IMG/VR virus record: IMGVR_UViG_3300021963_000230 | Coordinates: 1-44,165 of that record | Length of the DNA stretch: 44,165 bases | Source of the DNA: a virus | Direction: 5' to 3' (one strand) | In this document: positions 1,528-43,978 of the stretch, piece after piece | How the letters are laid out: each line of letters begins with the position of its first letter | How positions within the stretch are numbered: position 1 is the stretch's first letter | Position numbers and translations under genes: made by a program | Notes under the pieces: model-generated | What the model was told of the DNA's origin: nothing | The model's database searches: none | Seen by the model: the letters and a program-made list of their open reading frames with translations, nothing else

Positions 1528-1590
1528 GTAGATTTGTGTGAGTCAGCGGGTTGCCGCCCCTGACTCTGACCAACCTGCGGTACCAGGCTG
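1528..1590 (+). ncRNA. Conserved hairpin leader of homing endonuclease (copy C)
   Basis: Order: a flank GTAGATTTGTG; stem GAGTCAG (1540-1546) with CTGACTC (1560-1566); a bulged C (1547); inner stem GGG/CCC; loop TTGCCG; then a 24-base spacer TGACCAACCT...CCAGGCTG leading into ATG 1591. The same architecture, flank and spacer occur before the endonucleases at 43424 and 33645. Stem bases differ but stay paired, which is the signature of selection on RNA structure. Function unknown; a translational or transcriptional control element is inferred. Confidence 0.65.
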
Positions 1591-2043
1591 ATGACTACCA
1601 CACTAGAGCAGTGGCGCCCTATTGAAGGGCTGGAGAACATTTACGAAGTCAGCAATTTAGGACGGGTGCGAAGCCTTCCTAGAGAAGTGCTGGTGCTGAG
1701 GAAAGGGAAACCAGTTATTTGTCGCTACGCGGGAAAAATACTAAAACCGGGGCGCACTAAAAACGGGTATTTAGTTGTAAATATCGGCCATACGGGAGAA
1801 CAAAAAGTGCGTACTGTTCATTGTTTAGTCGCGTACGCTTTTTTACCGCCTTGCCCAGGTTGCCATGGAAGAAGTGGCTGGCACATTGACCATATAAACG
1901 AAAATAAATACGACAATCGTGCGGAAAATCTTAGGTGGTTAACTCACAAAGATAACAATTCAACGCCTGGGGTAAAAGCACGGTTGCGTGCTCGCCCGCG
2001 TAACGCTTTAAGGAATCGTTTCGTTAAGGTCGAATCTTCATGA
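1591..2043 (+). CDS. Homing endonuclease, NUMOD4 plus HNH_3 (150 aa)
   Basis: Residues 5-30 match a NUMOD4 motif (EQWRPIEGLENIYEVSNLGR VRS). A beta-rich stretch follows, then the HNH core: His77 in RTVHCLVAYAFL, HIDHINENKYDNRAENL at 98-114 (Asp100, His101, Asn109). It should make a double-strand or nick break at a specific site and spread by recombination. It is more AT-rich than its neighbours, which suggests acquisition. It points against the surrounding late genes and its last 20 bases overlap the endolysin gene end. The conserved hairpin leader precedes it. Confidence 0.9.
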   Translation: MTTTLEQWRPIEGLENIYEVSNLGRVRSLPREVLVLRKGKPVICRYAGKILKPGRTKNGYLVVNIGHTGEQKVRTVHCLVAYAFLPPCPGCHGRSGWHIDHINENKYDNRAENLRWLTHKDNNSTPGVKARLRARPRNALRNRFVKVESS

Positions 2044-3410: not shown

Positions 3411-3737
3411 ATGGACCATCGCATCGAAGATGGCGAATACTTAAATAAAAAGGAGGCGAAAGCTCGATTTAGGCAAGAAATCCTTAATAGTTGGCAGCAC
3501 ACGTGTGCTTATTGCGGAGACGATCTCGGAAGACTTGCCACGTTGGATCACGTATATCCAAAGTCCAAAGGGGGTTTGACGCACAAAACCAATCTTGTGC
3601 CCGCATGTTTTCCCTGCAACATATCCAAGTCAGACGCGCAACCTTTTTCTGCTTGGTACCAGCAGCAGCCTTTCTTTTGTCAAGAACGCGAAAAACGCAT
3701 CTTGGATTGGATAGCCGCTATGTCTGATGCAGCTTGA
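3411..3737 (+). CDS. HNH endonuclease (McrA-type, 108 aa)
   Basis: Classical zinc-containing HNH: Cys32-x2-Cys35 (CAYC), LDHVYPKSKGG at 45-55 (Asp46, His47), Asn61, and CFPCN at 66-70. ATG 3411 is the first start; no conserved hairpin leader like that of the three HNH_3 genes is present. It is transcribed against the lysis genes and its end overlaps the endonuclease VII gene (3718-4632) by 20 bases in convergent orientation. Most likely a free-standing homing endonuclease, though a phage-encoded packaging or defence nuclease is possible. Confidence 0.85.
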   Translation: MDHRIEDGEYLNKKEAKARFRQEILNSWQHTCAYCGDDLGRLATLDHVYPKSKGGLTHKTNLVPACFPCNISKSDAQPFSAWYQQQPFFCQEREKRILDWIAAMSDAA

Positions 3738-4632
3738 GATAATCCATCGCGTTATTAAGCAGGAGTATGGAATCTTGGAAAAACCCCAAGCCTACATTGC
3801 AATTTTTGCATAAAATACCTCGTACAGACCCCGTTGTGTGGCAATGATCGACAGCAACATTTTTTGTCCTTTTTATGCCATCAGCACTAATCTCTAAATC
3901 TGCTTTGCATATTGCACACTTTTTACTTTGTTTCGCCACTAAACTTTCAAACTCTTTAACCGTTATGCCATATCTATAACGTAGAAATGCTTTTGATGTG
4001 CAGGTGCTGCAACGAAATGAATACTCGCCTTCCGAAGCCTTATGAAACGATTGCAGAGGCTTAGTCTCTCCACATACTGAACACTTGCGCTTGCCGGTAC
4101 GGGCTTCTTCATGCTCTCGATGTTTTTTACGCTGCACGGCAAACTGCCCTTTTCCCGGAACGAACCACGCAGGAAAGGGTTCCAGTTCTAGGGCTTGTTC
4201 GGGACTCAGACCTTTTTTCACGCGGTTGACAAATTTTTGATAGGGAAACTGGTATGCATCAGCGGCTTTTTTATACGATGTATAACTTTGGTTATTTACT
4301 ACTACGGCGTTCCACTTAGTAGTCGGCGTATTTATTACACGTACTTGCCTGGGTTTAGGACTGAGGCCAAAAACTTGTTCGGGCGTCCAACCTCTCCTAT
4401 GTCTGTTTAGTGCTGTTGTAGTAGCCACTTTGTACTCTTTACACGCTGCGGCAAAAGAAGCGAATGTTTTACCGTTCACTGTTACCGCTTTATGGGCAGC
4501 AAAATTTATCGTCACAGCCTCTTCCAGAGAGATATTTCGATCCAAGCGGTGCAGCAGTGTCGTATATGGAATTTTGTGTGCTTCGGCTACTTCACGGAGG
4601 CTCTTGAACGAACGCCCTTCTACAAAATACAT
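3718..4632 (-). CDS. Endonuclease VII-fold homing endonuclease with N-terminal DNA-binding repeats
   Basis: 304 residues. Three related repeats lie at about 1-40, 48-90 and 108-150; each has an aromatic/Gly-Ser strand (GRSFKSL, GKTFASF, NQSYTSY), a helix, and an ending like GWTPEQVFGL. They look like NUMOD/IENR-type DNA-recognition modules. Residues 184-211 form a zinc ribbon (CSVC, CSTC). Residues 239-285 are the recombination endonuclease VII core: CAIC, VDHCHTTGSVRG (Asp262, His263, His265), CKNCNVGLG. T4 gp49 of this fold resolves branched DNA. Here the added repeats favour a site-specific homing enzyme. Confidence 0.85.
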   Translation of the reverse strand: MYFVEGRSFKSLREVAEAHKIPYTTLLHRLDRNISLEEAVTINFAAHKAVTVNGKTFASFAAACKEYKVATTTALNRHRRGWTPEQVFGLSPKPRQVRVINTPTTKWNAVVVNNQSYTSYKKAADAYQFPYQKFVNRVKKGLSPEQALELEPFPAWFVPGKGQFAVQRKKHREHEEARTGKRKCSVCGETKPLQSFHKASEGEYSFRCSTCTSKAFLRYRYGITVKEFESLVAKQSKKCAICKADLEISADGIKRTKNVAVDHCHTTGSVRGILCKNCNVGLGFFQDSILLLNNAMDYLKLHQT

Positions 4633-33139: not shown

Positions 33140-33162
33140 TTGAATAGTTTGTCCCAAAACTA

Positions 33163-33645
33163 CTATACCACTGCAAATTCGCCGTAAAGCTCGATGGCGG
33201 CTTTTTTATACGCGGCGTGAGCTTCCTCTGGGGTTGCATAGCTTCCCAAAGGGACCCACTTCAAATTCACCCGGATTCGGGCGTACCAGCGGTTTCCGGT
33301 TTTTACATAGCCTTTTGCCGCTCTGTTGTGTCTGTTTTGTGTGCCAGTAGCTAAACGTAGGTTCCAGTGCCTGTTGTCGTGTTTGATGCGGTTGATGTGG
33401 TCGATGTGCATTACTCCAGGATCCGCGCCCGTAACCCACTTCCAGACGATTCTGTGATTTGTGTAGTTACGTTGCCTCCAACAAATTTCGTAGTAACCAC
33501 GGGGTTTTAGGCATCCGGCTACATCACCGGCACGAACACGCCTGCCTGTGCTTACTCGCCAGATAAGTTCGCCGGTTAAAGGCTTGTACTCAAACAGCTC
33601 CCACAACTCTTCCGCAGTCGGTAGGGGCTTGTATGCTTTCGCCAT
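33163..33645 (-). CDS. Homing endonuclease, HNH_3 plus AP2 domain (160 aa)
   Basis: ATG 33645 at the conserved AGGCG-ATG after the hairpin leader. HNH core: NHRIVWKWVTGADPG (His64), MHIDHINRIKHDNRHWNL at 79-96 (His80, Asp82, His83, Asn91). AP2-type DNA-binding domain at 112-155: GYVKTGNRWYARIRVNLKW, VPLGSYATPEEAHAAYKKAA. N-terminal 45 residues match those of the gene at 43424 (KPLP..E, L-G-E/K-L-I/Y-W). Inserted between exonuclease and ssDNA-binding genes, typical of homing near replication genes. Confidence 0.92.
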   Translation of the reverse strand: MAKAYKPLPTAEELWELFEYKPLTGELIWRVSTGRRVRAGDVAGCLKPRGYYEICWRQRNYTNHRIVWKWVTGADPGVMHIDHINRIKHDNRHWNLRLATGTQNRHNRAAKGYVKTGNRWYARIRVNLKWVPLGSYATPEEAHAAYKKAAIELYGEFAVV

Positions 33646-33709
33646 CGCCTATTCCTGGTAGGTGGTCGGGGGCAGGGTGTTGGAAGCACCGCTGCCCCAC
33701 CATTTTACC
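33646..33709 (-). ncRNA. Conserved hairpin leader of homing endonuclease (copy B)
   Basis: Read leftward: flank GGTAAAATGGT, stem GGGGCAG (33698-33692) with CTGCCCC (33675-33669), bulged C, inner stem GGTG/CACC, loop CTTCCAA, then 23 bases CGACCACCTACC...AGGCG and ATG 33645. Compared with copy A at 43361, two base pairs have changed on both sides (T-A to A-T, C-G to T-A), so pairing is kept. It starts directly after the stop of the ssDNA-binding gene. Confidence 0.7.
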
Positions 33710-43159: not shown

Positions 43160-43365
43160 GTCCAGCCCGCACGGGAAGGGAACTTGTGATGGAGTGGCTC
43201 CAGCGGGAGATACGGCTGGCGAAGACGGCGGATTTGCAGCGGGCGGCGAATTTTTTGGAGTGGGCGCGGGGGATTAGGGCTGGGTGCTCCAAGCAGAGGA
43301 GTGGGGCGAGGCGGGCGCAGTCCAATGCGTGGCGGAAAAAAGTGGACGACGACATCCGCTGGTAA
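43156..43365 (+). CDS. Small basic protein (69 aa), complete copy of the gene at 3-128
   Basis: ATG 43156 with overlap to the preceding stop. Helical, strongly basic: GRELVMEWLQREIRLAKTAD, LQRAANFLEWARGIRAGCSK, ending NAWRKKVDDDIRW. The left window end carries the last 41 residues of an 87%-identical copy. It stops at TAA 43363-43365, immediately at the start of the conserved hairpin leader. Function unknown. Confidence 0.7.
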   Translation: MSPARTGRELVMEWLQREIRLAKTADLQRAANFLEWARGIRAGCSKQRSGARRAQSNAWRKKVDDDIRW

Positions 43366-43423
43366 ATTTGTGGGGCTGCGGCGCTCCAACGCCCAGCCCC
43401 TGACCACCTGACCTTCCCAGGCG
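43361..43423 (+). ncRNA. Conserved hairpin leader of homing endonuclease (copy A)
   Basis: Flank GGTAAATTTGT (including the upstream stop TAA). Stem GGGGCTG (43372-43378) with CAGCCCC (43394-43400), bulged C, inner stem GGCG/CGCC, loop CTCCAA. Then 23 bases TGACCACCTGACC...CCAGGCG to ATG 43424. Copies B (33646) and C (1528) share flank, architecture and spacer. Covarying pairs support a conserved RNA fold. No T-tract follows, so it is not a classical terminator. Confidence 0.7.
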
Positions 43424-43939
43424 ATGCCTAAGTGTAAGCCGCTGCCTCCTGTCGAGGTACTTAACCGCTGGTTTGAGCTTGACCGCGAAACCGGCAAGCT
43501 GTACTGGAAAGAACGTCCCAGCTCAAAAATTCGCATCGGCGATGAAGCCGGCTGTATTGCCCGTCTCACGTCTGGTCTGCGTTGTGTTATCAGGGTTCCT
43601 GGTTACAAGGGAATGTTTTATCGCTACCGGCTGGTATGGAAAATGGTGCACGGCGCTGATCCTATTTCGGATGCCATGGACCACCTTGACCAAAACAGCC
43701 TTAACGATCGACCAGAAAACTTGGTGGACGGCGGAAAGTCTTGGAACGGGCGTAACAAGGTAATTACGGCTAAAAGCGGCTATCGGGGTGTCATTGCGAT
43801 GAACGGGCGCTGGCGCGTCTCGTACACGGACCACGGAAAAAGCGTCTACGTCGGCATTTACGACACGATTGAGGAGGCCGCTGAGGCTTACGAAAAAACT
43901 CGGCAGAGTCTTTGCCCGTTGCAAGGTGATACAGTGTAG
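43424..43939 (+). CDS. HNH_3/AP2 homing endonuclease, partly degenerate (171 aa)
   Basis: ATG 43424 at the conserved AGGCG-ATG. N-terminal segment KPLPPVEVLNRWFELDRETG and GKLYW parallel the gene at 33163. HNH core: MDHLDQNSLNDRPENL (Asp86, His87), but the earlier His of YRYRLVWKMVHGADP is Tyr and the first His before the MDH is Ala, so catalysis may be impaired. AP2 domain at 118-160: GYRGVIAMNGRWRVSYTDHG, KSVYVGIYDTIEEAAEAYEK. Replaces the zinc-ribbon gene found at the left copy of this locus. Confidence 0.85.
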   Translation: MPKCKPLPPVEVLNRWFELDRETGKLYWKERPSSKIRIGDEAGCIARLTSGLRCVIRVPGYKGMFYRYRLVWKMVHGADPISDAMDHLDQNSLNDRPENLVDGGKSWNGRNKVITAKSGYRGVIAMNGRWRVSYTDHGKSVYVGIYDTIEEAAEAYEKTRQSLCPLQGDTV

Positions 43940-43978
43940 ACTACTGCAGTACAGCACAACCGGGAGTTGTTTACACAA

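Follow-up and report, generated by a model that had tools for sequence, protein, structure and literature searches.

What is the structured segment that lies directly before three homing endonuclease genes of a tailed phage linked to cyanobacteria, and on which strand does it act? The window, meaning the whole stretch of DNA analysed here, is the 44,165-base virus record IMGVR_UViG_3300021963_000230, which carries tailed-phage genes for a terminase, a major head protein, a tape measure protein, PolA and a Prim-Pol. The first-pass annotation had placed one and the same element before endonuclease ORFs at 43424, 33645 (minus strand) and 1591. All three copies were located at these places, and each has the architecture it had described: a 7-bp stem with a one-base C bulge, an inner stem of 3-4 bp, a loop, the motif YGACCAMC and the ATG. 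The ORFs behind them are, in the same order, AP2-HNH, AP2-HNH and NUMOD4-HNH. Our analysis suggests that the element specifies a small antisense RNA, not represented in Rfam, that lies over the starts of unrelated mobile-DNA enzymes and probably lowers their production.

Three copies of the element in the window

The features of the three copies are given below; P1 is the stem with the bulge and P2 is a second hairpin between P1 and the start codon. Bit scores are those of covariance model R1.

Copy 1
43372..43423, minus strand: candidate antisense segment, P2-GGUC-P1 as read on the minus strand; 71.8 bits
Fold energy: -33.0 kcal/mol on the antisense strand vs -27.1 on the ORF strand
43372..43400, minus strand: P1 hairpin of 7 bp, one-base bulge and inner stem; ORF-strand stems GGGGCTG/CAGCCCC
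43405..43423, minus strand: P2 hairpin, last base at -1 of the AUG
43363..43368, plus strand: sense -10-like hexamer TAAATT, 3 nt before P1
43431..43436, minus strand: antisense -10-like hexamer TACACT, within codons 3-5
43424..43939, plus strand: AP2 + HNH_3 homing endonuclease ORF, 171 aa, phrog_99

Copy 2
33646..33698, plus strand: candidate antisense segment, read on the plus strand with the ORF on the minus strand; 79.6 bits
Fold energy: -29.7 kcal/mol antisense vs -22.4 sense
33669..33698, plus strand: P1 hairpin; ORF-strand stems GGGGCAG/CTGCCCC
33646..33664, plus strand: P2 hairpin
33702..33707, minus strand: sense -10-like hexamer TAAAAT
33632..33637, plus strand: antisense -10-like hexamer TATGCT
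33163..33645, minus strand: HNH_3 + AP2 homing endonuclease ORF, 160 aa

Copy 3
1540..1590, minus strand: candidate antisense segment; 53.2 bits
Fold energy: -26.2 kcal/mol antisense vs -21.6 sense
1540..1566, minus strand: P1 hairpin; ORF-strand stems GAGTCAG/CTGACTC
1571..1590, minus strand: P2 hairpin
1529..1534, plus strand: sense -10-like hexamer TAGATT
1600..1605, minus strand: antisense -10-like hexamer TAGTGT
1591..2043, plus strand: NUMOD4 + HNH_3 homing endonuclease ORF, 150 aa

Elsewhere in the window, an ORF at 3718-4632 (minus strand) has both endonuclease VII and HNH-type PHROG matches and is possibly a fused or invaded gene.

Relatives in other phages

A covariance-model search, the check proposed with the first-pass annotation, recovered about 60 relatives of the element. 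With a degenerate pattern, 64 IMG/VR stretches were found, the majority of them true elements, of which nearly all lie before HNH-type ORFs; one element precedes a DUF3223 protein. These matches exceed chance, which answers the objection that the hairpin might recur by chance frequency. A second pattern that omitted the AGGCNATG end yielded ten further loci, mostly of the zf-His_Me/HNH family, with nearly the same hairpin. The homing endonuclease families found directly behind the element in these related IMG/VR phages are AP2-HNH, NUMOD4-HNH, zf-His_Me and DUF3223. Model R1 gave 47 strong matches in 43 of 44 records, the covariance-model E-values being rough, and in record G033 the same search detected a copy that has diverged and lies ahead of a tyrosine integrase gene. 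Among the viral loci examined, a structure test places the element at 83 of 114 HNH-like places, and the places without it mostly belong to other phages. The association with homing endonuclease genes stands, but it is not exclusive, since integrases, a resolvase and RHH genes carry the element too.

Other searches were negative. For the element in cultured phages, blastn returned chance matches only; HNH relatives in seven annotated phages lack the element; a loose pattern search of genome contigs gave no true element among the matches listed; and the NUMOD4 protein, used as a query, recovered no loci.

At three loci (L080, L096 and L061) the element directly follows a terminator, and the hairpins are nearly identical while the endonuclease ORFs behind them differ, which suggests that ORFs have been exchanged behind an unchanging leader. 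Where a phage record has two or more copies (the window, L004, L062 and G033), these are unlike in their P1 stems or loops, the exception being G749, which has two identical P1 hairpins in one record; such differences might keep antisense RNAs from cross-pairing. A more distant HNH gene (L012:2880-2985) is preceded by a -10-like hexamer, a long hairpin and CCTG..CAGG just before the ATG, an arrangement that R1 misses, and in Xanthomonas phage Valrath (L342:520-604) an unrelated long hairpin lies about 20 nt before the ATG of an HNH gene.

Structure and covariation

The compensatory change reported for the stem was borne out in P1, where 8 of 11 pairs vary on both sides among 27 aligned copies. 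The covariation score of these copies is 0.350, compared with 0.102 for shuffles and at most 0.141 for slid controls. With cyanobacterial copies added, double-sided changes are seen in 9 of 11 pairs and the score is 0.560 vs 0.129. Double-change cells in P1 number 61 vs 17.3 in shuffles, shuffle counts that are not probabilities, because the later alignments had been made to fit the structure and their sequences are relatives of one another; the weight of the covariation evidence lies in the slid controls and in the variety of the double changes.

The region originally described as a spacer of 23-24 nt does contain the GACCA motif, but the spacer is itself the second hairpin, P2, which had been missed. 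P2 begins in the GACCA motif, and its 3' arm ends at -1 of the AUG. It has a mean of 5.3 anchored pairs vs 3.0 when the arms are permuted between groups (0/5000). The element is a real, covarying, conserved structured element.

It had been considered to belong to no described RNA class, and indeed no Rfam 15 family matches it on either strand; the Rfam covariance model for RNA-OUT likewise has no match at the element on either strand. It had also been distinguished from an ordinary terminator by the lack of a U-tract directly after the hairpin, which was found to be correct. An intrinsic terminator was considered for either strand and rejected: the ORF strand continues with YGACCA, and on the opposite strand there are several intervening nucleotides and many copies have no U-run.

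The strand that folds better

The imperfect pairs in P1 and P2, when read on the ORF strand, comprise 43 A·C and 3 G·U, with the G·U at the outermost pair. An A·C on the ORF strand is a G·U wobble on the complementary strand, and on that strand all 25 of the elements checked adopt the same two hairpins, with 402 Watson-Crick and 83 G·U pairs. The order of the antisense fold is P2, the GGUC linker, and P1 (7 bp, a bulged G, 5 bp and a 4-nt loop). Of 39 elements, 38 fold more stably on the antisense strand than on the sense strand, beyond the effect of composition (Wilcoxon p = 5e-11, relatedness not corrected). Taken from sequence, these observations argue strongly that selection has acted on a structure of the antisense strand, either as RNA or as single-stranded DNA. 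By itself, the A-C/G-U asymmetry fits both an antisense RNA and a folded single-stranded DNA. A palindrome in double-stranded DNA is disfavoured, because it would give no such asymmetry. An alignment of structures that is rich in A·C can thus show that the folded RNA is on the opposite strand.

Promoter-like hexamers on both strands

The AT-rich flank reported in the first-pass annotation is present before P1, but we reread it as a -10-like hexamer of the form YANNNT. Of 40 elements, 33 have such a hexamer on the sense strand 2-7 nt ahead of P1, compared with 1-7 in other windows and a shuffled mean of 8.3. On the antisense strand, 24 of 26 endonuclease ORFs have a YANNNT that starts 4-9 nt into the ORF, in almost every case at 7-9 nt, with 0-4 in control windows. 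Nearly all endonuclease starts have an antisense TANNNT 7-9 nt into the ORF, irrespective of protein family. Counted by ORF type, the antisense hexamer is at 7-9 nt in 11 of 15; it is there in none of 14 element-free HNH relatives and in 2 of 35 other window genes. The peptides encoded at the ORF starts under this hexamer are unrelated (MAKAYK, MPKCK, MTTTLE, MDQSIG, MGAILR and MTESYG), and protein conservation therefore does not explain it. Only 2 of 13 non-endonuclease copies (integrase, recombinase, RHH and other) have the antisense hexamer at this position, one of these being the phage integrase.

At the usual gap of 6-7 nt, the sense transcript of the main phage group, in which the hexamer is 3 nt before P1, would start inside the P1 stem, and the antisense transcript is predicted to start opposite the AUG. 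A search for a terminator for the antisense RNA found none, and P1 is without a clean U-tract after it.

The likeness to a T4-like leader in the sense mRNA, drawn in the first-pass annotation, is not supported: no Shine-Dalgarno sequence is sequestered, and the pairing pattern together with the promoter-like hexamers points to an antisense RNA. A Shine-Dalgarno match is present in only 14 of 40 genes of the window phage. Shine-Dalgarno sequestration in the manner of T4 was set aside, there being no such sequence to hide and a fold that favours the opposite strand.

A mobile cassette

When 80 relatives were compared at one site, L255 was found to be occupied and L259 empty, so that, as expected of a homing endonuclease cassette, occupied and empty alleles exist at the same site. 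The sequence common to L255 and L259 runs through a terminator to the base before GGCAAAAT, and the cassette therefore starts at the sense -10-like hexamer. At the 3' end of the cassette, the endonuclease ORF supplies a new -10-like hexamer before the downstream gene. The -10-like sequences TATAGT and TAGACT occur next to or overlapping the stop codons of endonuclease ORFs (33150-33170 on the minus strand and 43925-43945 in the window; about 4622 in L255) and apparently rebuild the promoter of the downstream gene. In L069 (6396-7080), the endonuclease ORF behind the element covers the first 24 bases of a tRNA-Leu(UAA) gene, which suggests insertion at a tRNA gene.

Copies in cyanobacterial genomes

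With models R2 and R3, the element was found in 2 of 386 genomes of the phylum, 4 of 31 of one genus and 12 of 400 of one family, the phylum being assigned from a search set centred on a Cyanobacteria MAG and the counts being lower bounds because searches of more than 40 genomes used strict filters. The genes behind these copies encode RHH_5 proteins, tyrosine integrases (phrog_1) and a resolvase (serine recombinase), and one copy precedes the gene of a small protein, with an integrase gene two genes further on. Some neighbourhoods contain terminase or capsid genes and two copies adjoin tRNA-Pro; at least some of the cyanobacterial copies are therefore prophages or integrated elements. At L371:6459-8001 and L375:3676-6423 the order is tRNA-Pro, element and an integrase of 416-451 aa, with two small ORFs between in L375. 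The integrase of these two loci falls under the Pfam cut-off, yet matches PHROG 1; for the 416-aa protein, PDB and Pfam gave little, and identification came from PHROGs.

Most chromosomal copies do not have the antisense hexamer where the phage copies have it; they have an additional hairpin in ORF codons 5-12, with a mean of 5.1 bp vs 3.5 in shuffled sequences. In L353, L357 and L360-L367 this GC-rich hairpin varies in sequence between copies with the pairing kept. In 250 Burkholderiales genomes R2 gave three weak matches of 29.5-31.5 bits, which we regard as noise. A set of 297 genomes from a single class, chosen around an Arthrobacter MAG, gave no match to R3, a result that proves little.

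Proposed antisense control and its alternatives

We consider it probable that two promoters directed towards each other give rise to an mRNA and to a structured antisense RNA, which overlap across the 5' UTR and the start codon. The sense promoter, with its -10-like hexamer just before P1, would give an enzyme mRNA starting at or within the base of P1. In the phage copies, a second promoter facing the other way, with its -10 within the first codons of the ORF, would give an RNA that starts opposite the AUG and runs in the opposite direction, so that both transcripts would cover the structured segment. The antisense RNA would fold as P2, GGUC linker and P1, and would be fully complementary to the 5' UTR of the mRNA up to the start codon. 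Pairing, which probably begins at the hairpin loops, would therefore keep ribosomes from entering and hold a DNA-cutting enzyme at a low level, in the way that RNA-OUT acts on the IS10 transposase. The segment ends at -1 of the AUG and is thus complementary to the translation initiation region. The A·C mismatches of the ORF strand would weaken folding of the mRNA, as suits a message that must be translated. The sequence itself shows both hairpins, their covariation, the strand bias, the two hexamers and the tie to these genes; we infer promoter function, accumulation of the antisense RNA and repression alike, and repression by pairing appears to be the most likely function. Against the proposal count the sense start predicted inside the P1 stem for the main phage group, the negative search for a terminator of the antisense RNA, and the rarity of the antisense hexamer among the non-endonuclease copies. 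The antisense RNA of a resident cassette or prophage may conceivably also act in trans, by pairing with the message of a related endonuclease or integrase that newly arrives, although we hold this to be doubtful; if it does, the outcome would be copy-number control or exclusion between unrelated kinds of mobile DNA that have this one regulatory part in common.

A structured 5' UTR on the sense strand, binding a protein or ligand or stabilising the 5' end, could instead control translation of the mobile-element enzymes. The fixed distances of the -10-like hexamer before P1, the single orientation, the nearness of the AUG with P2 abutting it, and the hairpins before homing endonuclease genes of T4 and relatives (PMC2988022) would all agree with this. 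However, the ORF strand has A-C rather than G-U pairs (43 to 3) and folds more weakly in 38 of 39 elements, and the antisense hexamer in unrelated ORFs is left unexplained, which makes such a leader unlikely. We think it quite improbable that the element is a signal in folded single-stranded DNA of the bottom strand (for recombination, replication or a single-stranded DNA promoter) in the manner of integron attC. The bottom-strand bias would fit this also, and several carriers are recombinases near tRNA genes, but the element is also before homing endonucleases, which need no such site; the distance to the AUG is short and nearly fixed; and the antisense -10 hexamer points to transcription. 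An operator in double-stranded DNA, that is, an inverted repeat to which the enzyme or a repressor of the phage binds, would account for a repeat adjoining a promoter-like hexamer and has a precedent in I-TevI, which represses itself by binding its own promoter (PMC2988022), but it is very improbable, as a palindrome predicts neither the A-C/G-U asymmetry nor a one-sided bulge, and near-identical elements precede unrelated protein families. That recent copying of the cassette accounts for the conservation, with no selected structure, is scarcely credible, for although the main-group phage copies are nearly identical, compensatory changes extend across divergent groups and unrelated downstream genes.

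The proposed antisense RNA would represent one covarying RNA architecture over the starts of genes for HNH endonucleases from several families, for recombinases of the tyrosine and serine types and for RHH proteins, in phages and elements linked to cyanobacteria. If this is true, DNA-cutting genes would have in common a control part by which they become tolerable and portable. The proposal predicts an antisense 5' end opposite the AUG, abolished by synonymous changes in one hexamer.

Comparison with known systems

In T4 and relatives, hairpins precede homing endonuclease genes, and one of them does not sequester the ribosome binding site (PMC2988022). Those of I-TevI, segB, mobE and seg43(25) of T4 and Aeh1 lie just upstream of the start, with a promoter nearby (PMC2988022). 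The likeness to our element is this position just before a homing endonuclease start with a promoter close by. The difference is that the T4 and Aeh1 hairpins work as part of the sense mRNA, where most of them mask the Shine-Dalgarno sequence, whereas the element hides none and has its conserved fold on the opposite strand.

Integrase elements that lie near tRNAs and serine recombinases have recently been described from marine picocyanobacteria in a preprint (PMC10187409). The setting of these tyrosine-recombinase elements, as far as the consulted part of the preprint describes it, is like that of L371, L375 and L372, with integrases of weak domain match, tRNA genes and serine recombinases; unlike here, no RNA element is described in that part. 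Intrinsic terminators before phage HNH genes, such as those in ETEP102 and VIPECOTPH05A, are likewise hairpins directly before an HNH ORF, but they have U-tracts after them, and R2 has no match in them.

No antisense RNA that controls a homing endonuclease is known to us, and none was described among the titles and abstract openings that a literature search listed. Antisense control of transposases, in contrast, is classical. In IS10/Tn10, RNA-OUT, which is stable and structured, covers the site where translation of the transposase mRNA, RNA-IN, begins, and the two promoters face each other. The element is alike in that a structured antisense RNA would lie over the start of a mobile enzyme between putative facing promoters. 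RNA-OUT is one hairpin, whereas the element has two hairpins, a bulge and a conserved GGUC linker, without an Rfam match. We conclude that the element, most likely an antisense RNA, resembles the RNA-IN/RNA-OUT pair but would be a different RNA rather than a member of the RNA-OUT family in Rfam. Unlike RNA-OUT, it is common to several unrelated enzyme families, in phages and elements linked to cyanobacteria.
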